A DNA stretch of 63,648 nucleotides from Planctomycetota bacterium (GTDB lineage Bacteria > Planctomycetota > Phycisphaerae > Phycisphaerales > SM1A02), in contig VGXR01000010.1 in assembly GCA_016873255.1 (NCBI GenBank), positions 1 to 63,648 of the forward strand, read 5' to 3'. The translations under genes and the position numbers were made by a program. Positions 14,266 to 48,788 of the stretch are shown one piece after another; position 1 is the first letter of the stretch; every line of letters begins with the position of its first letter. The notes beneath the pieces were generated by a model, which was not told the origin of the DNA, ran no database searches, and was given only the letters and a program-made list of their open reading frames with translations.

Positions 14266-15942
14266 TCACGCGCCCTGGGCGCTGGCGGCGGCCGCCCGCA
14301 CCGCAGGATCGCGCTGCACGAATCCCGGGATGTCGTTGCCGCCGAGCGGATGCGCCACCAGCCAGCCCTGCGCGGCATGCCAGCCGCGCTCGGCGAGGAA
14401 GGCCCACTGCGCGGGCTGCTCCACGCCCTCGGCGGTGCATGCGATGCCGCGTCCGCGCGCATGGCGGAGCGCCGACTCGAGCGTGGCGCGGTCCTCGGCC
14501 GACCCCGGCAGCCGCGCCACCACCGTCCGGTCGACCTTCAGCTCGTCCACCGGGTAGCGGTGCAGCAGCCCGACGCCGGCGATGCCCGTCCCGAAGTCGT
14601 CGATCGCGATGCGCGCCCCGGCCACGCGGATCCCCTCCAGCTGCGGAAGCATGGCTTCGCCGTCGCGCTCGAGGAGCCCCTCCTGCAGTTCGAGCGTGAG
14701 CAGCCTCCCCGGGATGGCGGCTTCGCTGAGCGCGAGGCGCACCTCGTCCTCGAGGTCGCCCCGGCGGAACTGGCTCGGTGCCACGTTCACGCTCACGGGC
14801 AGGTCCACGCCCGCGCGCGACCAGGCGGCGCACTGCCGGCATGCCTCGCGCAGCGCCCAGCTGCCGATCTCCGCCAGCAGGCCCGCGTCCTCGGCGATGG
14901 CCAGCAGCCGCGTGGCGGGGATCGATTCGCCGGTGGTCGGCAGGTTCCATCGGATGAGCGCCTCGGCGGCGATGGTCTCGCCCGAGGCGATGCTCACGAT
15001 CGGCTGGTAGACGAGGCGGAAGTCGCCGCGTTCCAGCGCGTGCTGGAGCAGCGTGGCGAGGTGCACCTCGCGGAGGGTGCGCTCGGCATCGCCCGCCGAG
15101 TGCACGTGGAGCCGCGGCTGCGGGCCCAGCCGCGCCACCGCCAGCGCGTGCCGGCTGCGCGCCAGCGCGATCTCGATCGGCGGGAGCCGCTCGCCGTCGC
15201 CGACCTGGAGCACGCCGATGCTGCTGCGCAGCCGGAGCTCGCGCCCGCCCACGCGGACCACGGGCTGGCCGGTGCCACCGAGCGCCGCCAGCAGCGCGCG
15301 CGGTTCCGGGGTGGACCCGGGCAGGAAGACCGTGGCCGTGGACCGGCCGGCCGGGAAGAACGCGGCCTGCTCCGGGATCAGCGCCCGGATGCGGCCGCGC
15401 CAGAGTTCGCTGAGTTCCCGCAGTGCCTCGAAGCCCTCGACGGATGCCACCGCGTCGGCGTCCTCGATCTCCAGCGAGACGATCCAGAGCGGGCGCGGCA
15501 TGGCCTGCGCCGCGGATTCCATGGCCGCGAAGCTGGGGACGTCCTCGGAGAGGGTCGGCCCCGCCGCGGGCGTCCGGCGCTCGCGCGCCCGGATGGCCTC
15601 GACGAGGTCCGCGGGATCGCAGTCGAAGGGCAGCGCATCGTCGGCACCGTCGAGGATCGCCTCCCGCACCGCGCGGGCGGTCTGCGCGGACTCGGGGAGC
15701 AGCGCGATCACCGACAGTGCACGGCCGCTGCCGGCGCTCCGCGCCGCGGCGCAGGCCTCGCGGAGGTCCATGCCCGTGGACATGGCGCCGACCACCAGCA
15801 CGTCGGGATGCGCCTCGGGGAGGAGGCGGAGGCCCCCTTCGGCATCGGCCGCGGAGCGCAGCTCGAAGCGCGCCTTCCTGAGCGCCAGCGCGAACCGGTC
15901 GCGCCGCGCCGGGTCGCCTTCGATCAGGAGCACGCGGGTCAT
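14266..15942 (-). CDS. Cyclic-di-GMP phosphodiesterase (EAL) with degenerate receiver and GGDEF-like regions
   Basis: 558 residues. Residues 1-120 fold like a response-regulator receiver (MTRVLLIEGDPARR supplies the acidic pair), but the phosphoacceptor position at the end of strand 3 reads DVLVVGAMS, with Gly instead of Asp. Residues about 150-300 look like a GGDEF remnant without the GGDEF signature. The EAL domain (about 305-545) is intact: AEALIRW, the Asn of SVNVAPSQF, Glu in LELQEGLLE, IDDFGTG, the Lys of DELKVDR and AEGVEQ. It is therefore expected to hydrolyse c-di-GMP, with non-phosphorylatable input domains. It starts 11 bp after the upstream TauE/SafE gene stop and may be cotranscribed with it. 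Confidence 0.88.
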   Translation of the reverse strand: MTRVLLIEGDPARRDRFALALRKARFELRSAADAEGGLRLLPEAHPDVLVVGAMSTGMDLREACAAARSAGSGRALSVIALLPESAQTARAVREAILDGADDALPFDCDPADLVEAIRARERRTPAAGPTLSEDVPSFAAMESAAQAMPRPLWIVSLEIEDADAVASVEGFEALRELSELWRGRIRALIPEQAAFFPAGRSTATVFLPGSTPEPRALLAALGGTGQPVVRVGGRELRLRSSIGVLQVGDGERLPPIEIALARSRHALAVARLGPQPRLHVHSAGDAERTLREVHLATLLQHALERGDFRLVYQPIVSIASGETIAAEALIRWNLPTTGESIPATRLLAIAEDAGLLAEIGSWALREACRQCAAWSRAGVDLPVSVNVAPSQFRRGDLEDEVRLALSEAAIPGRLLTLELQEGLLERDGEAMLPQLEGIRVAGARIAIDDFGTGIAGVGLLHRYPVDELKVDRTVVARLPGSAEDRATLESALRHARGRGIACTAEGVEQPAQWAFLAERGWHAAQGWLVAHPLGGNDIPGFVQRDPAVRAAAASAQGA

Positions 15943-15953
15943 CGTGGGAAATG

Positions 15954-16775
15954 CTACTTGGCTGCCTCGAGCCACGACGCGATCACGGGCCATGCCATCC
16001 ATGCCGCGGCGATCGGGAGGTACGAGGCAAGCACCCAGCGCACCGCGCGCCCGGTGACGCGGAGGTTGAGGCTCGCGCCGAGCCAGCTTCCCATGATGGC
16101 CGTGGGCACGAGGCATGCGGCGATCGCGAGCGTCGGCACGAGCGCCGATCCTCCGGAGGGAACCTCCGACCGCCACAGCGTGACGGCCTTGGTGGTTGCA
16201 CCGACCGCGGTCAGCGGGACCATGGTGCACACGCTGGAGACGATCGCGCGCTTCATCTCGAGGTGCGCCCACGTGCGCATGAGCGGGAGTCCCACCACGC
16301 CGCCGCCGATTCCGAGCAGGCCGCTCAGGAACCCCATCGCCGATCCGATGGTCAGCGCCTGGTGGCGAGGCAGGTCCCGCTCGGCGGGTCCGCCATCCGG
16401 CGAGCGGCGGGCCAGCAGCCGGAACTCGCGCACGGCCACCGCCAGGAGGAAGGCGCCGAAGGCAACGCGGAACCACTCCGCGCCCATGAACACGCTGGCC
16501 GCCACGCCGACCAGCACTGCCACGAGCGCGGCGGGGACGAGCCTGCGCGCAAGCGTCCAGTCCACGGTGCCCGCCTGCCGGTAGCGGCGAAACGCGGTGA
16601 GCGCGACGGCGAAGTTCGCGATCATCGCCGCACCCTGAAGCTGCTGCTTGTCCGGGGCGAGCACGATGGTCGCGAGCGGGATGAACCCGATCGAGCCGCC
16701 CACCCCGAGCAGGCCGCCGATGGCGCCGCCGAAGAGCCCGAAGGCGGCATAGGCGGCGACGGAGGAAGCGTCCAT
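15954..16775 (-). CDS. TauE/SafE-family permease (sulfite/sulfonate exporter type)
   Basis: 273 residues from the ATG at 16775; a longer frame upstream is antisense to yifB and was discarded. About eight membrane segments. The two family half-motifs appear as GAIGGLLGVGGSIGFIP near the N-terminus and GFLSGLLGIGGGVVGLPLM in the second half, the internal duplication expected for DUF81/TauE. Family members export sulfite, sulfoacetate or related organic anions across the inner membrane; the substrate is not readable here. Divergent from yifB and followed closely by the EAL gene. Confidence 0.9.
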   Translation of the reverse strand: MDASSVAAYAAFGLFGGAIGGLLGVGGSIGFIPLATIVLAPDKQQLQGAAMIANFAVALTAFRRYRQAGTVDWTLARRLVPAALVAVLVGVAASVFMGAEWFRVAFGAFLLAVAVREFRLLARRSPDGGPAERDLPRHQALTIGSAMGFLSGLLGIGGGVVGLPLMRTWAHLEMKRAIVSSVCTMVPLTAVGATTKAVTLWRSEVPSGGSALVPTLAIAACLVPTAIMGSWLGASLNLRVTGRAVRWVLASYLPIAAAWMAWPVIASWLEAAK

Positions 16776-39125: not shown

Positions 39126-39770
39126 ATGTCCGAGACCCGCGCCCCCGCGTCGAATGACGCCGTCCGTTCCCTCCGCGCCTCGTACGCCCTCGCCGCGGGT
39201 GCCGCGGCCGCGACGGCCGCCTCGGCCGATGCGGCGATCGTGTATTCAGGAGTCCAGGACATCTCGATCGCCCAGGGCTTCTCGCTGAGCCTGAACCTCG
39301 ACAACGATGCCAACGCCGACTTGAAGCTCAAGAACTACATTTTAGGGCTTAACTACATGGGCGCGCAGGTCATCTTCGCGCCCGGCAAGTTGGTGTCGTT
39401 CATTAACAGCGCGAATAACTACGCGTACGTGAGTGCGTTGTCTGCGGGCGCGGCGATCGACGCCTCTACCGTCGGCCCGAGCTTCCTCGGCTCGATGGCC
39501 TACGGGTATCTCAACCCGAACGCGCAGTTCAACAACGCGAGCAACGCCTACCTCGGCCTCTCGTTCGCCAGCGGCGCAGGCCTGTACTACGGCTGGGTGC
39601 GCGTCAGCGTGGACCAGGCCGCGGGCTCATTCATCGTGCACGACTGGGCGTACGATGACTCCGGCTCGGGCATCGTGGCCGGTGCCGTCCCGGCGCCCGG
39701 TGCGCTCGGCCTGTTCGCCGCCGGCGCCTCGGGCCTCGGGTTCCTCCGCGGCCGCAAGCGCTCCGCCTGA
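39126..39770 (+). CDS. PEP-CTERM surface protein
   Basis: 214 residues. An N-terminal hydrophobic Ala-rich segment (ALAAGAAAATAASADA) is the signal peptide. The mature part is Asn/Ser/Tyr/Ala-rich. The C-terminus has the tripartite sorting signal: VPAPGALG motif (planctomycete variant of VPEP), hydrophobic helix LFAAGASGLGFL, and basic tail RGRKRSA. Such proteins are processed by an exosortase (EpsH/XrtA type) and linked to exopolysaccharide; no exosortase is in the window. Strong hairpin follows at 39805. Confidence 0.88.
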   Translation: MSETRAPASNDAVRSLRASYALAAGAAAATAASADAAIVYSGVQDISIAQGFSLSLNLDNDANADLKLKNYILGLNYMGAQVIFAPGKLVSFINSANNYAYVSALSAGAAIDASTVGPSFLGSMAYGYLNPNAQFNNASNAYLGLSFASGAGLYYGWVRVSVDQAAGSFIVHDWAYDDSGSGIVAGAVPAPGALGLFAAGASGLGFLRGRKRSA

Positions 39771-39890: not shown

Positions 39891-41846
39891 ATGCGCATCG
39901 AGCGCCGCAACGACTCCGGCCGCCCGAAGCGCGTCCTCCTCGTCGGGTGGGACGCCGCCGACTGGCAGATGATCCGTCCGCTCCTGGACGCGGGGCACAT
40001 GCCGACCCTGGCAAGGCTGCTCTCGCGCGGGGCGTCGGGCAACCTCGCGACCACGCGGCCCATCCTGTCGCCGATCCTGTGGAACACCATCGCCACCGGA
40101 CGACGCGCCGACGCGCACGGCGTGCTCGGGTTCACCGAGCCCGTGCCCGACGGCCCCGGCATCCGCCCGACCGCGAGCACCAGCCGGCGATGCAAGGCGC
40201 TCTGGAACATCCTCACGCAGTGCGGGCTGCGCTCGAACGTGGTGGGGTGGTACGCATCGCACCCGGCCGAGCCGATCGCGGGCGCGATGGTCTCGAACCA
40301 GTTCGAGTTCCGCGCCGAGGATGACGCGCCGGGCGCGCCGCTGCCCGCGGGCGCGGTGCATCCGGCGGAGCTCGCGGCGACGATGGCCGAGTGCCGCGTC
40401 CACCCGTCGGAGGTCGACGCGTCCGCGGTCCTTCCCTTCGTGCCGGACGCGGCGCTTGAGCTCGCGCGAGAGGGCAACCGCGTCGGCAAGCTCATGCAAC
40501 TCATCGCGCAGACCGCGTCGATCCACGCGATGGCCACGCGGCTCATGGAGCGCGGCGACTGGGACTTCACCGCCGTCTACTACGAGGGGATCGACCGCTT
40601 CGGGCACGAGTTCATGGAGTTCCACCCGCCGCGCATGGCCGAGGTCGACGAGCGCGACTTCGCGGCGTATCGCCACTGCATGAACGGGATCTACCGCTTC
40701 CACGACATGATGCTCGAGACGCTGCTCGGGCTCGCGGGCCCCGATACGGCCGTGCTCGTGATCAGCGACCACGGCTACTGGAACGACCACCGCCGTCCCG
40801 ACCCGAGGCCGGGGAAGGCCGGGCCCGTGGATTGGCATCGCCCGTACGGCATCTTCGCGGGCGGCGGGCCCGGCATCCGCGCCGGGGCGCGCGTGCATGG
40901 CGCGAGCATCCTCGACGTCGCGCCGACGGTGCTGGCGCTCATGGGCCTGCCCGCCGCCGACGACATGCCCGGCCGCGTGCTCTCCGAGGCGCTCGAGGGC
41001 GTCGAGGCGCCGCAGCGCATCGCGACCTGGGAGTCGGTGCCGGGTGAGTGCGGCATGCACGCCGCCGAGCTGCGCGTCGACCCGGAGGAGGCGCGCGCGG
41101 CGCTCGCGCAGCTCGTCGACCTCGGCTACATCGACCCGCTCGGGGCCGACGACGAGGCGACGCGGCGCGACACCGTGGCGTCGAACCGGCTGCAGCTGGC
41201 GCAGTCGCACGTGGACTCGGGCCAGCACGCGCGCGCGCTCGAGGCGCTCGCCGGCATCGAGGGTCCGCTCGCGGCGACTGACGGGGTTCGCATGCTGCGC
41301 GCGACGGCGCATGCGGGTCTCGGCGACGCGGCGTCGGCCGAGGCCGAGCTCGCGGCGCTTCACGGGGACGCGCGCGAAGGTGCGGGGGCCGCGGTGCTGC
41401 GCGCGCGCCTGCGGCTCGTCACGGGCGACGCGGCGGGCGCGGTGGAGCTGCTGCGCGCGCTCGCGGCACGCCCGGAACCCGTGGAGGGGATCGACGCGAT
41501 GCTCGGCCGCGTGCTCGCGGCCGCGGGGCGCGACGCCGAGGCCGAGGGTGCGCTTCGGCGTGCGCTCGACGCGGAACCCGAGGATGCCGGGACGCTCGGC
41601 GCGCTTGCGGCGCTGCGGCTGCGAGCGGGCGATGCGGAGGAGGCGCTCGAACTCGGGCTGCGCGCCGCGGCGCTCGATATGCGCCAGCCCAGGGTCCACA
41701 TGACCGTCGGTTGCGCGCTGATGGCGGTCGGCGAGCACGGCGAGGCGGTGAACGCCTTCGCGGCATGCGTGGCGCACGCGCCCGGCTGGGCCGAGGCGCG
41801 CCAGGCGCTGGCGGCCGCGCGCGCCGCCGCGGGGCAGGGGGCCTGA
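39891..41846 (+). CDS. Alkaline-phosphatase-superfamily (phosphodiesterase/nucleotide pyrophosphatase type) protein with TPR tail
   Basis: 651 residues. The N-terminal ~400 residues are an alkaline-phosphatase-fold domain: first metal Asp in VLLVGWDAADW (Asp21), the nucleophile region LSPILWNTIATGR, the Asp/His pair in GIDRFGHEFM, SDHGYWND for the second site and WHRPYGIFAG for the last His. The remainder (about 430-650) consists of TPR-like helical pairs rich in Ala/Arg (LGALAALRLRAGDAEEALEL). No signal peptide is visible, so a cytosolic role is likely. The TPR tail suggests a protein partner. It is followed by a divergent paralogue 2 bp downstream. Confidence 0.88.
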   Translation: MRIERRNDSGRPKRVLLVGWDAADWQMIRPLLDAGHMPTLARLLSRGASGNLATTRPILSPILWNTIATGRRADAHGVLGFTEPVPDGPGIRPTASTSRRCKALWNILTQCGLRSNVVGWYASHPAEPIAGAMVSNQFEFRAEDDAPGAPLPAGAVHPAELAATMAECRVHPSEVDASAVLPFVPDAALELAREGNRVGKLMQLIAQTASIHAMATRLMERGDWDFTAVYYEGIDRFGHEFMEFHPPRMAEVDERDFAAYRHCMNGIYRFHDMMLETLLGLAGPDTAVLVISDHGYWNDHRRPDPRPGKAGPVDWHRPYGIFAGGGPGIRAGARVHGASILDVAPTVLALMGLPAADDMPGRVLSEALEGVEAPQRIATWESVPGECGMHAAELRVDPEEARAALAQLVDLGYIDPLGADDEATRRDTVASNRLQLAQSHVDSGQHARALEALAGIEGPLAATDGVRMLRATAHAGLGDAASAEAELAALHGDAREGAGAAVLRARLRLVTGDAAGAVELLRALAARPEPVEGIDAMLGRVLAAAGRDAEAEGALRRALDAEPEDAGTLGALAALRLRAGDAEEALELGLRAAALDMRQPRVHMTVGCALMAVGEHGEAVNAFAACVAHAPGWAEARQALAAARAAAGQGA

Positions 41847-41848
41847 CG

Positions 41849-43600
41849 TTGGAAGGCGCGCCGCGCACGCTCCTGGTGTGCGTCGAGGGCGCGGACTGGC
41901 GCGTGCTGTCGCCCCGCGTCGACGCGGGAAGCATGCCCGCGCTCGCGGCGCTCGTCGAGCGCGGAGTGAGCGGCCGCGTCGCGCCGGTCGATCCCGCGGG
42001 CGGCGTGCCTGCGTGGGCCTCGGTGCTCACGGGCGCGTCCGCGATGCGGCACGGGGTCCTCTCGGCGCGCGTGCCGGGTGCGGACGGGCGCACGGTGCGC
42101 GCCGCCGCCTGCGGCGACCGCGCGTTGCCCACGATCTGGGAACGCGCGTCCACAGCCGGTCACCGCACCGCGATCGCGGGATGGGGCGAGCCGTTCGCGC
42201 CCGCCGACGGCGCAGCCGAGGCGATCGAGCTCGCGGTGCCGGCGTGGGCCGAGGCAATCGCCGAACCCGCGACCGCGTCGCATCCCCGGCTGGCGGCGCT
42301 GCTCCGGGCGCTCGCCGCGGCGTTCGAGCGCGAACTGCGCGCCACCATGATGGCGTGCGGCGCGCGGCCGTGGGACCTCGCATGCGTGCACGTGGCCGGC
42401 TGGGCCGCGCTCGTGCGCGAGTTCGTCCGGTTCGCGCCGCCTGCAGAGCCCGGCGTGCCGGATGCGCGTGCGACCGCGTTCGGCGGCGTGGTCGACGGTG
42501 CGTGCTCGGCGCTCGACGGTTGGCTCGGGGGCCTGGTGCGCACGGCAGGCGCGGGCGCGGCGGTCGTCATGACGGGCGAGCGCGGCCTCGACCTCGAGCG
42601 CTGGCGCGCGCCCGCATCGACCGCGGGCCCCGGGGCCGTGCACGTCGCCGCACCCGCACCCGCGGCGTTCGTCGCGGTGGGGCCCGGCATGCGGCCGGAC
42701 TCGCTGCGCCACGGCATGGTCGCGGTCGACGTGGCGCGGATCACGCTTGCGTTCCGGGGGATCGATGGCTTCACGCCTCCGGCGAACCGAGGAGACGTTC
42801 CGTTGCCTGCGGTCCCCGAAGGCGAGCTGCCCGCGGACGTGCGCGCGCTGCTCCGGGAGCGCGACGCGGCATTCGCGCACGCGGCGGCGGTCGCGGGAGC
42901 GATCGATGCGGCGATCGCGGCGCGTTCCCGGATGGCGGCGCGGGTTCCCGTCGACGCGGCCAACGCAGCCGCGTTCGCGGACCTCCTGGTCGCGCGCGGC
43001 GAGGCGGCCGCGGCGCTTGCCGCGGTGGAATCGTGCCGGGCGGCGTTGCACGCCTCGTGCGGCGGGCAATCCGGCGACGCCCGCGCGATGCCGTGGCCGC
43101 TCGCGCTGGCCGAGGCTCGCGCGCTGCTCGCGTCGGACCGGAGCCGCGACGCCGCGGCCGCGATCGACCGTGCCGCGTCCGACGGTGCGCCCGAGGTCGA
43201 GGTGCTGCTCGCACGCGCGTCGGCGGCTTCGTCCGACGAGGACCACGCGGCATCCGAGCGACATGCCCGTGCGGCGATCGCTGCCGCGCCTTCCTCGCGC
43301 GAGGCGCGGATGGCGCTCGCGCGGGCGCTGTTCGCGCAGGAGCGGTTCGCCGACGCCGCGGACGCGGCCCGTGACGCGATCGGCATGGCATGGGCCGACC
43401 CGCTCGCGCACCTGCTGCTCGGGACGGCGCTGGCCGCCGACGGACGTGCGCGCGAGGCGATCGCCGCGCTCGAGGATTGCCTGCGCGTGCGGCCGGAGTT
43501 CCCTCCCGCGCTGCGCCGGCTCGCGGCGGTGCACATGAACCAGCTCGGCGACGTCGTGTCCGCGCGCGCCCTCATGGCGCGCGCGGTCGCGGCGGGGTGA
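41849..43600 (+). CDS. Degenerate paralogue of the upstream phosphatase/TPR protein (probable pseudoenzyme)
   Basis: 583 residues from TTG 41849, 2 bp after the preceding stop; no suitable ATG. The N-terminus aligns well with the neighbour (VCVEGADWRVLSPRVDAGSMPALAALVERG versus GWDAADW...DAGHMPTLARLLSRG), but metal ligands are gone: GWD is CVE, GID..GH is absent (VHVAGWAALVREF), SDHG is GERG. A TPR-rich half follows (about 345-583). It therefore looks folded but catalytically dead, perhaps a regulatory or dimer partner of the intact protein. The frame is intact and codon use resembles the neighbour, so it is not an ordinary pseudogene. Confidence 0.8.
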   Translation: MEGAPRTLLVCVEGADWRVLSPRVDAGSMPALAALVERGVSGRVAPVDPAGGVPAWASVLTGASAMRHGVLSARVPGADGRTVRAAACGDRALPTIWERASTAGHRTAIAGWGEPFAPADGAAEAIELAVPAWAEAIAEPATASHPRLAALLRALAAAFERELRATMMACGARPWDLACVHVAGWAALVREFVRFAPPAEPGVPDARATAFGGVVDGACSALDGWLGGLVRTAGAGAAVVMTGERGLDLERWRAPASTAGPGAVHVAAPAPAAFVAVGPGMRPDSLRHGMVAVDVARITLAFRGIDGFTPPANRGDVPLPAVPEGELPADVRALLRERDAAFAHAAAVAGAIDAAIAARSRMAARVPVDAANAAAFADLLVARGEAAAALAAVESCRAALHASCGGQSGDARAMPWPLALAEARALLASDRSRDAAAAIDRAASDGAPEVEVLLARASAASSDEDHAASERHARAAIAAAPSSREARMALARALFAQERFADAADAARDAIGMAWADPLAHLLLGTALAADGRAREAIAALEDCLRVRPEFPPALRRLAAVHMNQLGDVVSARALMARAVAAG

Positions 43601-43637: not shown

Positions 43638-44543
43638 ATGCTCAAGGCTTGGCTCGACGGCCGCTTCCTCCCGATGCCCGAGGCGCAGGTGTCGGCCTTC
43701 GACGCGGGCTTCCAGCACGGCGTGGGCCTCTTCGAGACCGCGCTCGCGAGGCACGGACGCGTGTTCCGCGGGCTCGAGCACATGGAGCGCATGCGCACCA
43801 GCGCGAAGGAGCTCGGCCTGGCCGACACGCTTCGGCCCGAGGCGCTTGTCGACGTGATGGAGGCGACGCTCGCGGAGAACGCGCTGCCGCACGCGCGCGT
43901 GCGGGTGACGCTGACCGCGGGCAACATGAACATGCTCGCGCGCGGGCAGCAGGAGGCACGCCACGACCCGACCATCCTCGTGCAGGTGCAGCTGCCGACC
44001 CAGTACCCGGCCGAGCTCTTCGAGAAGGGCGTGGCGGTCCGGATCGCCGACGACCAGCTCAACGTGGCCGATCGGTTCGCGTCGCACAAGTCGCTCTGGT
44101 ACTGGCCGCGGCTCCACGCGCTGCAGCGCGCTGCGGCGGCAGGATTGCAGGAGGCGCTCTGGTTCGACGTCACCCGCGCGCTCGCGTGCGGATGCGTGTC
44201 GAACGCGTTCATCGTGCGCCACGGCGCGCTGGTGACGCCGCCGGCACGCGGGGACGAGGCCAAGGGGTCGCCCGTCCGCAGCCCCGTGCTGCCGGGGATC
44301 ACCCGGGCGGCGGTCATCTCGCTTGCGGAGGAGTCCGGCATCGAGGTCCGGCGCGAGCGGATCGAGGTGGGCGCGATCCTCGACTCGGACGAGTTGTTCC
44401 TGACCAACTCCAGCTGGCACGTGCTCCCCGTGACCGCGGTCGAGCAGCGCACGATCGGTGCGGGCGAGCCCGGCGAGGTGACGCGCACGCTGCGCGCGGC
44501 GCTCCTGGAGCGCATCGACCGAGAGACGCAGCGCAGCCGCTAA
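43638..44543 (+). CDS. Class IV aminotransferase (BCAT / D-amino acid / aminodeoxychorismate lyase family)
   Basis: 301 residues. WLDGRFLP...VSAFDAGFQHGVGLFET is the start of PLP fold-type IV enzymes; the PLP lysine is Lys151 in SHKSLWYWP, and the phosphate-binding part SNAFIVRHG..LPGITR and ELFLTNSSWHVLPVT match. Activity among branched-chain transaminase, D-amino acid transaminase and ADC lyase cannot be resolved from the visible residues. It is the last gene of the cluster with the two phosphatase-like genes and is followed by a strong terminator. Confidence 0.9.
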   Translation: MLKAWLDGRFLPMPEAQVSAFDAGFQHGVGLFETALARHGRVFRGLEHMERMRTSAKELGLADTLRPEALVDVMEATLAENALPHARVRVTLTAGNMNMLARGQQEARHDPTILVQVQLPTQYPAELFEKGVAVRIADDQLNVADRFASHKSLWYWPRLHALQRAAAAGLQEALWFDVTRALACGCVSNAFIVRHGALVTPPARGDEAKGSPVRSPVLPGITRAAVISLAEESGIEVRRERIEVGAILDSDELFLTNSSWHVLPVTAVEQRTIGAGEPGEVTRTLRAALLERIDRETQRSR

Positions 44544-44584: not shown

Positions 44585-44827
44585 TCACTTCCCCGCGATG
44601 CGCCTGATCGCCACGCGCAGGATGGCGAAGACGATGAGCGCCACGATGCACGCCCCGCCGAGGACGACCGCCGGCACGAGGAGCGCCACGGTGAGGACCA
44701 CGAGCAGCATCCGCACCATCGCGCGGCCGAGCGGGGAGCGCGGGCCGGCGCCGGTGGCACCGCCCGGTGCGGGCTGCGGCCCGGAGCCGATCTCGATGCG
44801 CTTGACGACGATTTCCCGGCTTTCCAT
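44585..44827 (-). CDS. Small membrane protein
   Basis: 80 residues from ATG 44827 (an upstream in-frame start at 44854 is possible). Polar N-terminus of about 35 residues with Pro/Gly/Ala, then a long hydrophobic region (LLVVLTVALLVPAVVLGGACIVALIVFAILRVAIRR, here shown in part) sufficient for two short membrane helices, and a basic end RRIAGK. No known family recognised. Shares a very short divergent promoter region with dnaE. Confidence 0.6.
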   Translation of the reverse strand: MESREIVVKRIEIGSGPQPAPGGATGAGPRSPLGRAMVRMLLVVLTVALLVPAVVLGGACIVALIVFAILRVAIRRIAGK

Positions 44828-44882
44828 GGCGGTTGGATCGTATCCCCGGCTCACCTACGATGCGCCGCGCGACAGGAAGTCC

Positions 44883-47800
44883 ATGGCAAGCAACGGCACC
44901 ACCACAGGCACGGAGGCCGCGGGAACGGGGGACGCGGGCCCGCGCTTCGTCCACCTGCACCTGCACAGCGAGTACTCGCTCCTTGACGGCGGCAACCGCA
45001 TCAGGAAGCTGGTGAGCCGGGTCAAGGAGCTGGGCATGGACGCCGTGGCCGTCACCGACCACGGCAACCTGTTCGGCGCGCTCGAGTTCTACATGACCGC
45101 GCGGGAGGCGGGCGTGAAGCCGATCCTCGGCATCGAGGCGTACGTCGCGCCCGGCGACCGGCGCGACCGCACGCACACGGGCATCATGGACGGCGGCTTC
45201 CACCTGGTGCTCCTGGCGCAGGACATGCAGGGCTGGCGCAACCTCCTCAAGCTCTCGAGCGACTCGTTCCTCAACGGCTTCTACTACAAGCCGCGCATGG
45301 ACAAGTCCACGCTCCGAGAGCTGAACGCGGGGCTGATCGCGATCAACGGGCACCTGGGGTCGTCGATCGCGCACCACCTCGACCAGTTCGTCCGCACCAA
45401 CCAGCAGCGGCACTGGGAGGCCGCGCTCGAGGAGGCTCGGTGGCACGCCGAGACCTTCGGGCCCGACGCCGCGGGCGAGCCGCGCTTCTACATCGAGCTG
45501 CAGCGCCACGTGGACGACCAGGAGCGCATCAACCCGCTCCTCAAGAAGATCGCGCGCAAGCTGGGGCTGCCGCTCGTCTGCGACAACGACGCGCACTTCA
45601 TGCGGCGCGAGGACCACGATGCGCACGACACGCTGTGCTGCATCTCCATGGGGAAGACCAAGGACGCCCCCGACCGCCTGAAGTACTCCGAGGAGCTCTA
45701 CGTGAAGAGCCCGCAGGAGATGCACGCGCTCTTCTCGCAGGACGAGCAGGAGCGCGAGGCGCTCGAGAACACGGTGCGCATCGCCGCCCGCTGCGACGTG
45801 ACGCTCCCGAAGGACCAGCGGCACGCGCCCGTGGTGCGCATCCGGCACGGCGGCCGCACGCCGAGGTACGATCCCGCCAGGGACGGCGACCTCACCGAGT
45901 GGTTCAAGGCCTACTGCCGCACCATCGAGCTGCTTCCCTTCGATGCCACGAAGGACGCCGACGTCTCCGAGGCCGAGCTCCGCGCCGACTGCGACCGCGC
46001 GCTCCGCGACCTCGCCGAGGCGGGCCTGGTGTGGCGCTACGGGCATGACGGCATCACGCCGGAGGTGCGCGCGCGCGCCGAGCGCGAGCTCAAGGTCCTG
46101 AGCGACAAGGCGATCAGCGCGTACTTCCTGATCGTCTGGGACTTCGTCAACTGGGCGCGCCAGCACGGCATCCCCGCCACGGCCCGCGGCTCGGGCGTCG
46201 GCACCATGGTCGGCTACGTGCTCGGCCTCTCCAACGCCTGTCCGGTGCGGTACGGCCTGCTCTTCGAGCGATTCACGGATCCCGACCGCAGCGAGTACCC
46301 CGACATCGACATCGACCTCTGCCAGGACGGCCGCGGTGCGGTCATCCAGCACGTGCGCCAGAAGTACGGCCACGTGGCGCAGATCGCCACGTTCGGGCGC
46401 CTGAAGGCGAAGAACGCCATCAAGGACGTGGCGCGCGTGATGGGCCTGCCGCCCGCCGACGCGCAGCGCATCTCGAACCTGGTGCCCGAGGCGCCGGACA
46501 TGACCTTCGAGAAGGCATTCGCCGGCGGCCCGCAGCTGGCCGAGGCCTACGCCGCCGACGACACGGTGCGTCGCGTGGTCGATGCCGCCAGGGCTCTCGA
46601 GAACCACGCGCGCACGCAGGGCATCCACGCCGCGGGCGTGGTGATCGCCACGCAGCCGCTCGACAACATCGTGCCGCTCTGCCGGCCCACCGGCGGCGGC
46701 GACGAGGTGGTGACGCAGTGGGAAGGCCCGCTCTGCGAGAAGGCCGGCCTCCTGAAGATGGACTTCCTCGGGCTGCGCACGCTCTCGACCATCGAGCTCG
46801 CGAAGAGGCTCGTGCGCGAGTCGATGTCCGAGGAGGCGATCGTGCGCGCGGTGGGCCGCGAGCCCGGCGACGGCGGCCCGAACCCGCTCGACCTCGACCG
46901 CATCCGGCTCGACGACCAGAAGGTGCTCGCGCTGTTCCGGCGCGCGGACACGGGCGGCGTGTTCCAGTTCGAGTCGGGCGGCATGCGCCGCCTGCTCGCG
47001 GACATGCAGCCCGACCGGCTCGAGGACCTGATCGCCGCGAACGCGCTCTTCCGGCCGGGGCCGATGAGCCTGATCCCCGACTACAACGCGCGCAAGCATG
47101 GCCGGCATTCCGTGCCGAGGGTGCACGAGGCGGTGGACCCGCTGCTCGCCGAGACCTACGGCATCATGGTCTACCAGGAGCAGGTGATGCAGGTGCTCCA
47201 CCTCCTCGGCGGCATCCCGCTTCGGGAGGCGTACTCGGTCATCAAGGCCATCAGCAAGAAGAGCGAGAAGGTCATCAACGGCGCGCGCGAGGAGTTCGTG
47301 AAGGGCGCCGCCGGACGCGGCGTCGACGCCGCGCGCGCCAACGAGCTCTTCGACCTCATCGTGAAGTTCGCGGGGTACGGCTTCAACAAGAGCCACTCCA
47401 CGGGGTACGCCATCGTCGCCTACCAGACCGCGTACCTGAAGACCTGGTTCCCGAACCACTTCATGGCCGCGGTGCTCACCTACGAGAGCCAGGCGCAGAA
47501 GGTCGAGGACTGGGCCGTCTACCTCGAGGAGTGCCGCCGAACGGCGTTCCCCGACTCGAGCGAGCGCCGGCCGCACGTCGGGGTTGAGGTCCGCCCGCCG
47601 GAGGTCAACCTCTCCGACTCGGACTTCGCGGTGGTGTACGGCGACGGCGAGCCGCACGACGCGGTGCACGGCCACGTCCGCTTCGGCCTCAAGGCGATCA
47701 AGGGCGCAGGCGAGAACGCGATCGCCGCCATCGTCGCGGAGCGCAGGGCGCACGGCCGCTTCCGCGACTTCTTCGACTTCTGCGACCGCGTCGACCTGCG

Positions 47801-48788
47801 CTCCGTGAACCGCGCCACCATCGAGGCGCTGGTGAAGGGCGGGGCATTCGACGCGCTGCACGGGGTGGACGCGCGCGCGGCGCTCGTGGCCACGGTTGAG
47901 GACGCGATCCGCAGCGGCCAGGCCAAGAACGAGGACCGCCGCGTCGGGCAGATGACCTTCTTCGGGGACTTCGAGACCGGCGCTCCCGCGGGCGGATCGG
48001 GTTCCGCGCCGGCGGTGCTGCGGAAGGTGCCCGCGTGGGAGCGCATGCAGGCGCTCGCACACGAGAAGGAGGCGCTCGGCTTCCACGTGAGCGGGCACCC
48101 GCTCGACGGCTACCGCGACGAGCTCGGGACCTTCTGCGTGGGAAGCGTCGAGCAGGTGGCGCAGATGCCGCAGGACGCATCCGTCGTGGTCGGCGGCATC
48201 CTCACGCGGGTGCGGGCCGTGGTGGCCAAGACCGGCCGCAGCGCGGGCCAGCGCATGGCCATGTTCACGCTGGCGGACCAGTCGACGGCGATCGAGGGCG
48301 TGCTGTTCGCGAGCACCTTCGCAGCCTGCGCCGAGCTGATGCAGCAGGACCGCGTGGTGCTGATGGTGGCGCGTCTCGACCACTCGCGCGGCTCGCCGCA
48401 GCTCGTGGTGGACCGCGTGATCCCGGTCGAGGACGCCGCGCAGCACCTGGCCACGCGGCTCGAGATCGAGGTGGACGGCGACGGCCGCGAGGAGCGCCTG
48501 CGCACCGCGGCGCTGCAGATGGCCGCCGGCATCCTGCGCCAGGCGTCGGGAAGCGTGGCCGCGCTCCACGGTCGCCCCGTCGACGTGAACGTCCGCGTCC
48601 GCATCGACGGCCGCAGCGTGCTCATGCACTCGAGCTCGCTGCGCGTGGTGCCCGAGCGCGCGCTCCTCGCGAAGCTCGCCTCGGCGCTCGAGGGGTCGGG
48701 TCGCGTGCGCGTGCTCGGCGGTTTCGTGCCGCAGCGCGAGAAGCCGCGGTGGCAGTCGCGGCGCCCGGCCGCCGCCGAGGCCAACTGA
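44883..48788 (+). CDS. dnaE: DNA polymerase III alpha subunit
   Basis: 1301 residues from ATG 44883. N-terminal PHP domain with FVHLHLHSEYSLLDGG and VTDHGNLFGA, metal residues largely preserved, so residual phosphatase or exonuclease activity is possible. The polymerase palm shows SGVGTMVGYVLGLSN and YPDIDIDLCQDGR with the catalytic Asp pair, then FQFESGGMR and FRPGPMSLIP. The C-terminal part contains the tandem HhH and OB fold (VVVGGILTRVRAV) and ends RRPAAAEAN. The protein is replicative DnaE1-type. It lies divergent from the small membrane protein. Confidence 0.97.
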   Translation: MASNGTTTGTEAAGTGDAGPRFVHLHLHSEYSLLDGGNRIRKLVSRVKELGMDAVAVTDHGNLFGALEFYMTAREAGVKPILGIEAYVAPGDRRDRTHTGIMDGGFHLVLLAQDMQGWRNLLKLSSDSFLNGFYYKPRMDKSTLRELNAGLIAINGHLGSSIAHHLDQFVRTNQQRHWEAALEEARWHAETFGPDAAGEPRFYIELQRHVDDQERINPLLKKIARKLGLPLVCDNDAHFMRREDHDAHDTLCCISMGKTKDAPDRLKYSEELYVKSPQEMHALFSQDEQEREALENTVRIAARCDVTLPKDQRHAPVVRIRHGGRTPRYDPARDGDLTEWFKAYCRTIELLPFDATKDADVSEAELRADCDRALRDLAEAGLVWRYGHDGITPEVRARAERELKVLSDKAISAYFLIVWDFVNWARQHGIPATARGSGVGTMVGYVLGLSNACPVRYGLLFERFTDPDRSEYPDIDIDLCQDGRGAVIQHVRQKYGHVAQIATFGRLKAKNAIKDVARVMGLPPADAQRISNLVPEAPDMTFEKAFAGGPQLAEAYAADDTVRRVVDAARALENHARTQGIHAAGVVIATQPLDNIVPLCRPTGGGDEVVTQWEGPLCEKAGLLKMDFLGLRTLSTIELAKRLVRESMSEEAIVRAVGREPGDGGPNPLDLDRIRLDDQKVLALFRRADTGGVFQFESGGMRRLLADMQPDRLEDLIAANALFRPGPMSLIPDYNARKHGRHSVPRVHEAVDPLLAETYGIMVYQEQVMQVLHLLGGIPLREAYSVIKAISKKSEKVINGAREEFVKGAAGRGVDAARANELFDLIVKFAGYGFNKSHSTGYAIVAYQTAYLKTWFPNHFMAAVLTYESQAQKVEDWAVYLEECRRTAFPDSSERRPHVGVEVRPPEVNLSDSDFAVVYGDGEPHDAVHGHVRFGLKAIKGAGENAIAAIVAERRAHGRFRDFFDFCDRVDLRSVNRATIEALVKGGAFDALHGVDARAALVATVEDAIRSGQAKNEDRRVGQMTFFGDFETGAPAGGSGSAPAVLRKVPAWERMQALAHEKEALGFHVSGHPLDGYRDELGTFCVGSVEQVAQMPQDASVVVGGILTRVRAVVAKTGRSAGQRMAMFTLADQSTAIEGVLFASTFAACAELMQQDRVVLMVARLDHSRGSPQLVVDRVIPVEDAAQHLATRLEIEVDGDGREERLRTAALQMAAGILRQASGSVAALHGRPVDVNVRVRIDGRSVLMHSSSLRVVPERALLAKLASALEGSGRVRVLGGFVPQREKPRWQSRRPAAAEAN

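Follow-up and report, generated by a model that had tools for sequence, protein, structure and literature searches.

A catalytically degenerate alkaline phosphatase superfamily gene kept beside its active-type relative in a Phycisphaerales bacterium

Why should a gene be kept when the protein it encodes has lost every residue by which its relatives bind metal and attack their substrate? This question is raised by two adjacent genes of a Planctomycetota bacterium (Phycisphaerales; contig VGXR01000010.1 of GCA_016873255.1), lying in a stretch of 63,648 nt which was analysed as a whole and is called the window here. Both proteins join a domain of the PF01663 family (type I phosphodiesterase/nucleotide pyrophosphatase), which belongs to the alkaline phosphatase (AP) superfamily, to a tail of TPR repeats, and are hereafter called AP-TPR proteins. 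A preliminary description of this DNA had proposed that the second gene is a dead paralogue of the first, and that the two form a regulatory pair. The features discussed are collected in Table 1.

Table 1. Location of the AP-TPR genes and associated features; positions without a locus name are those of the window.
Feature	Location	Strand	Description
PEP-CTERM-like exported protein	39126..39770	+	214 aa; tail PAPGALGLFAAGASGLGFLRGRKRSA; assigned from tail pattern and homology
Gene 1	39891..41846	+	active-type PF01663 AP-superfamily domain and TPR; 651 aa; full ligand set
Gene 2	41849..43600	+	degenerate PF01663 domain (0/7 catalytic positions) and TPR; 583 aa
PF01663-like part of gene 2	41867..42403	+	residues 7-185; profile match
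TPR part of gene 2	43085..43591	+	residues about 413-581
Stand-alone degenerate AP-TPR	L083:3501-5903	-	3 of 7 kept
Stand-alone degenerate AP-TPR	L139:1016-3097	-	2 of 7 kept
Stand-alone degenerate AP-TPR	L199:3653-5683	+	2 of 7 kept
Clade-B loci			G019, G319, G154, G086, G064, G145, G123, G295, G083, G092, G401, G136, G385, G301, G317

Gene 2 opens with a TTG codon 2 nt after the stop of gene 1 and reads to its own stop without interruption, at coordinates which we could confirm, and its GC content by codon position (0.82/0.63/0.90) follows the pattern of a coding gene. Both proteins pass the curated PF01663 cut-off of 23 bits, gene 1 with 80.9 and gene 2 with 48.7 bits, and BLASTP finds 95 of 355 positions identical between them (27%, E 5e-23). 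That gene 2 belongs to the AP superfamily is also indicated by a comparison of profiles, A1 aligning with A3 over 552 columns (E 2e-37). The TPR tails claimed for both proteins were recovered by Pfam in the second half of each; in gene 2 the Pfam stretches lie within residues 454-581, and helical repeats or structural matches begin at about residue 411. On inspection by eye neither protein shows a signal peptide, and a scan for promoters and terminators gave no signal exceeding shuffled controls. On the 3' side of the pair lie two genes which by eye resemble those of an aminotransferase-type enzyme (43638-44543) and of DNA polymerase III alpha (44598-48788), and the gene order after the pair is the same in a second genome of the genus, G005 (L067:3325-8293).

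Seven ligand and nucleophile positions, D21, S60, D235, H239, D293, H294 and H316, were taken from gene 1 by alignment, and gene 1 thus carries all of them; H294, the histidine beside the last Asp, is counted as a ligand as in the superfamily generally. The corresponding residues of gene 2 are E, G, A, R, E, R and A, and none of the seven is kept. The three motif changes noticed earlier (GWDAAD to CVEGAD, GIDRFGH lost, SDHG to GERG) are correct, and beyond them both the S60 nucleophile and H316 are replaced. Since the full set is present in 52 of the 58 aligned AP-TPR rows, the loss in gene 2 is not an accident of alignment; the six rows without it belong to gene 2 and its two orthologues, and to three further degenerate paralogues. 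Gene 1 accordingly possesses the two-metal ligands and Ser nucleophile of a PF01663 enzyme and is predicted to be active, and gene 2 lacks them; the gene 2 substitutions, the TPR tail on both proteins and the absence of a visible signal peptide are what set the pair apart from that family. The residue pattern was checked against PorX, a phosphodiesterase of known structure and a response regulator of the type IX secretion system with an AP-superfamily effector domain, whose zinc sites are formed by Asp360, His364 and His499 (Zn1) and Thr271, Asp237 and Asp414 (Zn2) (PMC11320123).

The AP part is of low confidence in the AlphaFold models of both proteins, each built on six alignment rows, and the gene 2 model as a whole has a pLDDT of 68.5. 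The matches listed by Foldseek for the gene 2 model, and by VIA-align for both models, are TPR or similar repeat proteins. When sequences were compared with the PDB, no more than weak similarity was seen for the gene 1 AP part, phosphoglycerate mutase and phosphonoacetate hydrolase being the proteins matched (best E 0.058), and the best 60 rows obtained with the profile of the whole family all match in the TPR part.

Orthologues of gene 2 were found in two other genomes among the 14 of the genus, G005 (89% identity) and G007 (52%), and neither retains the ligand set: the G005 copy keeps 0/7 and has the same replacements as the window gene, and the G007 copy keeps 1/7, the first Asp, and differs from it at four of the seven positions. 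The dead residue set is therefore maintained among the relatives examined. Each orthologue adjoins that of gene 1, starting 1-2 nt downstream of it (gene 1 of G005 is split across two contigs), and the frames are complete in all three species, with lengths of 583, 583 and 581 aa. A search for the pair in the 14 genomes showed that all three which carry gene 1 also carry gene 2; neither orthologue was found in the other 11, each 64-90% complete.

The selection acting on gene 2 was estimated as dN/dS by the Nei-Gojobori method, with codon bootstrap intervals. Values of 0.31 (0.22-0.43) against G005 and 0.48 (0.40-0.59) against G007 were obtained for gene 2, compared with 0.19 (0.12-0.29; residues 123-651 only) and 0.21 (0.16-0.26) for gene 1, and the intervals of the two genes do not overlap in the G007 comparison. 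Because the gene 2 values exceed those of gene 1 but their intervals lie below 1, purifying selection on gene 2 is weaker than on gene 1, yet present. In 500 simulated runs of neutral evolution, gene 2 stayed free of stops in 27% at 0.105, 2.6% at 0.43, and 0.2% at 0.86 substitutions per site, so that the open frame in G007 is strong evidence of constraint, while that in G005, at a short distance, is weak evidence. Gene 2 is thus a pseudoenzyme, which has lost its catalytic residues while its protein has been kept under selection, and the earlier proposal that a dead paralogue adjoins an intact one, which frameshifts or relaxed selection might have undone, holds.

Less of that proposal survives where it makes gene 1 the parent of gene 2. 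A tree of 58 AP domains places the three gene 2 sequences with the stand-alone degenerate paralogues G007 C11, G145 C133 and G064 C197 (99% SH-aLRT) and not with gene 1; however, the AU test does not reject a position next to the gene 1 clade, either for gene 2 (p 0.277) or for the G007 copy alone (p 0.148). The end branch of the G007 copy is 4.5-6.5 long, a real long-branch risk, and long branches may pull the degenerate rows together; whether or not the fast-evolving rows were included, the trees gave no decision on an origin from gene 1. Pairwise scores give no guidance either: apart from its orthologues, assorted active genes are the best matches of the G007 copy (114 bits with G049a), and it reaches 104-105 bits against the gene 1 relatives G061 and G086 C18. 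No dead partner adjoins the closest relatives of gene 1, G061 (65%), G086 C18 (60%), G053, G112 C155 and G049, in the neighbourhoods fetched.

A search of the order with gene 1 gave matches in 125 of 400 genomes, and neighbourhoods were fetched around part of them. Among these are 15 loci, here called clade B, in which a far more degenerate AP-TPR gene of 518-623 aa lies behind an active-type one of about 1000 aa and shares its strand; a further locus, in G363, is cut by the end of its contig. In G136 and G385 the upstream gene is itself cut, and its TPR end alone is seen beside the dead gene. The two genes overlap by 4 nt in 11 of the 15 pairs (in G086 and G064 the overlap depends on a GTG start chosen by us), and the other gaps are 24, 41, 72 and 1385 nt. 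All 12 active genes that were scored carry the full ligand set, and the 20 rows of B-type dead genes, stand-alone ones included, carry it in no case; the D235/H239 stretch is absent from 19 of the 20, in a region where the alignment is rough. Only one of seven second genes tested matches PF01663, and their profile (9 rows) nevertheless aligns with the active profile over 479 columns (E 2e-21); with gene 2 it aligns over the TPR only. These second genes have dN/dS values of 0.30-0.38 in three species pairs, and their profile finds matches at E <1e-50 in 17 of 400 genomes of the order.

Clade-B pairs resemble the pair of the window in the order of an active-type and a dead gene, and in the plan of AP followed by TPR, and differ from it in the missing D235/H239 region and in a Sulfotransfer_3 tail, found with PF01663 and TPR in one chain of the active gene tested from G295 (L143:5290-8400, minus strand). 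The paired clade-B actives (the 12, with G363) form one tree group (97%) apart from gene 1, and no such partner was seen in the neighbourhoods fetched for G354 and G021, actives of an adjacent group. Given these separate positions and the unpaired relatives, there have been either two or more gains of a dead partner or many losses. The preliminary description had called such a pair unusual for the superfamily, and this needs qualification: the pairing itself stands, but a degenerate AP-TPR gene behind an active-type one recurs in the better populated clade B, and stand-alone copies occur in addition. At one locus of G154 (L190:9199-10755 and 14815-16509, plus strand), two B-type dead genes lie behind one active gene, and the second of them is followed by three PEP-CTERM-like genes. 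Elsewhere, a separate SGLPRTGTS-type gene, sulfotransferase-like by eye, overlaps an AP-TPR gene (L126:254-859, minus strand).

Degenerate genes also occur alone. The three stand-alone paralogues grouping with gene 2, which keep 3, 2 and 2 of the seven residues, have no active copy in their loci (L083, L139 and L199), and the same is true of the B-type dead AP-TPR genes in L189, L191 and L192 (genus g8). In G020 and G139 a B-type dead gene is present with no gene 1 match among the matches listed, which suggests that a dead protein may function in the absence of an active gene beside it. More distant matches to the B-dead profile (L193-L195, L197 and L198; 88-101 bits) were set aside, as they were found mainly through the TPR half and their kinship in the AP part is unsure. 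The tandem AP genes of G036 and G038 (L081 and L082), at 69-94 bits to the gene 1 profile, were likewise put aside as members of another AP subfamily.

The window offers a lead on the function of the AP-TPR family in a gene for a PEP-CTERM-like exported protein, which ends 120 nt before gene 1 and is probably the first gene of the cluster. Its tail scores 13.9 bits with PF07589, against a cut-off of 20.7, and the exosortase PF09721 was found in all eight genomes searched, that of the window (G000) included (E 7e-44). With a strict tail pattern of our own, applied to the same strand within 1500 nt upstream, such a gene precedes 36 of 62 AP-TPR genes, compared with 0.023 expected per gene from the density away from AP genes, the 62 including the three stand-alone degenerate genes and five with less than 300 nt of upstream sequence. 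The loci with a PEP-CTERM-like gene directly upstream include the window, L068, L069, L070, L072, L075, L077-L080, L084, L114, L116-L121 and others; none was counted upstream of any of the 13 clade-B actives in this set, two of which have almost no upstream sequence. A looser pattern, applied to a choice of 25 loci and judged by eye since false frames also match it, adds upstream genes in L115, L083, L139 and L199, and downstream genes in L073, L190, L130 and L145. The proteins encoded upstream of the stand-alone genes of L083, L139 and L199 are homologous to that of the window (E 2e-11, 4e-10 and 2e-21).

The same linkage is seen from the other side. The window PEP-CTERM-like protein has 61 matches in 43 of 400 genomes of the order, and at least 35 of them, by comparison of the tables by hand, have a same-strand AP-TPR gene no more than 1.5 kb away; the best 15 of the 61 are all among these 35, one of which adjoins a degenerate gene, G064 C197. 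The other 26 have no AP-TPR neighbour among the matches listed, where at most three AP candidates were scored per genome. The occurrence of dead and live AP-TPR copies near surface-protein genes is thus a wider, recurring pattern.

What gene 2 does is best explained, in our reading, by regulation or scaffolding of its active partner, in view of the catalytic loss, the selected open frame, the co-occurrence and adjacency with gene 1, and the repeated PEP-CTERM-like linkage. We give a probability of roughly 40% to gene 2 being a selected pseudoenzyme which is made together with the gene 1 product and forms a complex with it, and which tunes the enzyme or holds its client. The two proteins would be made together, possibly by co-translation, and would associate by way of their AP folds, their TPR arms, or the two combined; gene 1 would perform the chemistry, and gene 2 would either tune the active phosphodiesterase or hold a shared client. 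Co-occurrence and layout, and the recurrence of that layout elsewhere, point to a joint action with gene 1, and the gene linkage to a service for the PEP-CTERM-like protein; this upstream protein, or a precursor of its modification, would be the likely client, presumably handled in the cytosol before export. Nearly as likely, gene 2 encodes an adaptor or chaperone that acts alone and whose dead AP domain and TPR bind a client, probably the PEP-CTERM-like protein, its adjacency to gene 1 reflecting shared regulation only. The stand-alone degenerate copies, which keep a PEP-CTERM-like gene directly upstream, argue that an active gene nearby is not strictly required, as do the dead genes of G020 and G139. 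The preferred reading also has against it that the closest gene 1 relatives show no dead partner in the fetched neighbourhoods, and that none of the 13 clade-B actives counted has the PEP-CTERM-like gene upstream. Yet in the 14 genomes of the genus gene 2 was found only alongside gene 1, and the 4-nt overlap common in clade B is the layout usual for subunits of one complex.

It is unlikely that gene 2 has turned the AP fold to a different activity which needs no metal, or to the sensing of a ligand where the active site used to be. Such re-use would agree with the identical replacements in the window and G005 copies and with a stretch of the former metal loop, LVREFVRFAPPA (residues 188-199), that is invariant in the three orthologues; however, we estimate that an identical run of 12 residues at 52% identity is within chance for such a length, the G007 copy departs from the other two at most of the catalytic positions, and the AP part of the model is too uncertain for its pocket to be used. 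Slightly less probable still is a duplicate whose constraint has relaxed and which is decaying towards a pseudogene; this would explain why dN/dS is raised over that of gene 1, but hardly why both intervals stay below 1 and why three species retain complete frames of nearly constant length. An artefact of assembly or reading frame in a GC-rich metagenome bin might be suspected, as both other gene 2 carriers, recovered also as L112 and L113, are MAGs and overlapping ORFs abound on both strands; the recurrence of the pair in three genomes and the codon-position bias of a real gene refute it in practice.

If regulation or scaffolding of gene 1 is the role of gene 2, some parallels can be drawn. 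PorX is likewise an AP-superfamily regulator which affects the secretion of surface proteins, with a metal-ligand pattern as in gene 1; in contrast, it is active and has a receiver domain, the accessible text mentions neither TPR nor a dead partner, and the likeness is one of described role and ligand pattern (PMC11320123). Trypanosomatid prozymes (the AdoMetDC prozyme and the dead DHS paralogue) are also dead paralogues retained with an active relative, and complex formation and activation are reported for them (PMC5201418, PMC3663545); unlike the present pair, for which both would be predictions, they concern other enzymes, in eukaryotes. The enzyme/pseudoenzyme pairs in the consulted part of one review are mostly eukaryotic (PMC10211241). 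Among titles and the beginnings of abstracts, a scope outside which most subscription journals fall, we found no natural pseudoenzyme of the AP superfamily and no linkage of AP-TPR to PEP-CTERM.

Tentatively, these genes may represent an undescribed enzyme/pseudoenzyme system of the Phycisphaerales, built on AP-TPR proteins many of which are tied to PEP-CTERM-like genes, in which dead copies of at least two origins would serve as regulatory or client-holding subunits. They provide a bacterial set on the alkaline phosphatase fold in which catalysis has been lost more than once and in graded steps, with 0, 1, 2 or 3 of the seven residues left. As active relatives without a neighbouring partner also exist, the contribution of a dead copy to a live one becomes open to comparison. 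Across the phylum, gene 1 has matches in 143 of 392 genomes, and in two more distant ones a pair of matches lies close together on one strand (G478:C60:39669-44777 and G546:C33:990-3619, both on the minus strand).
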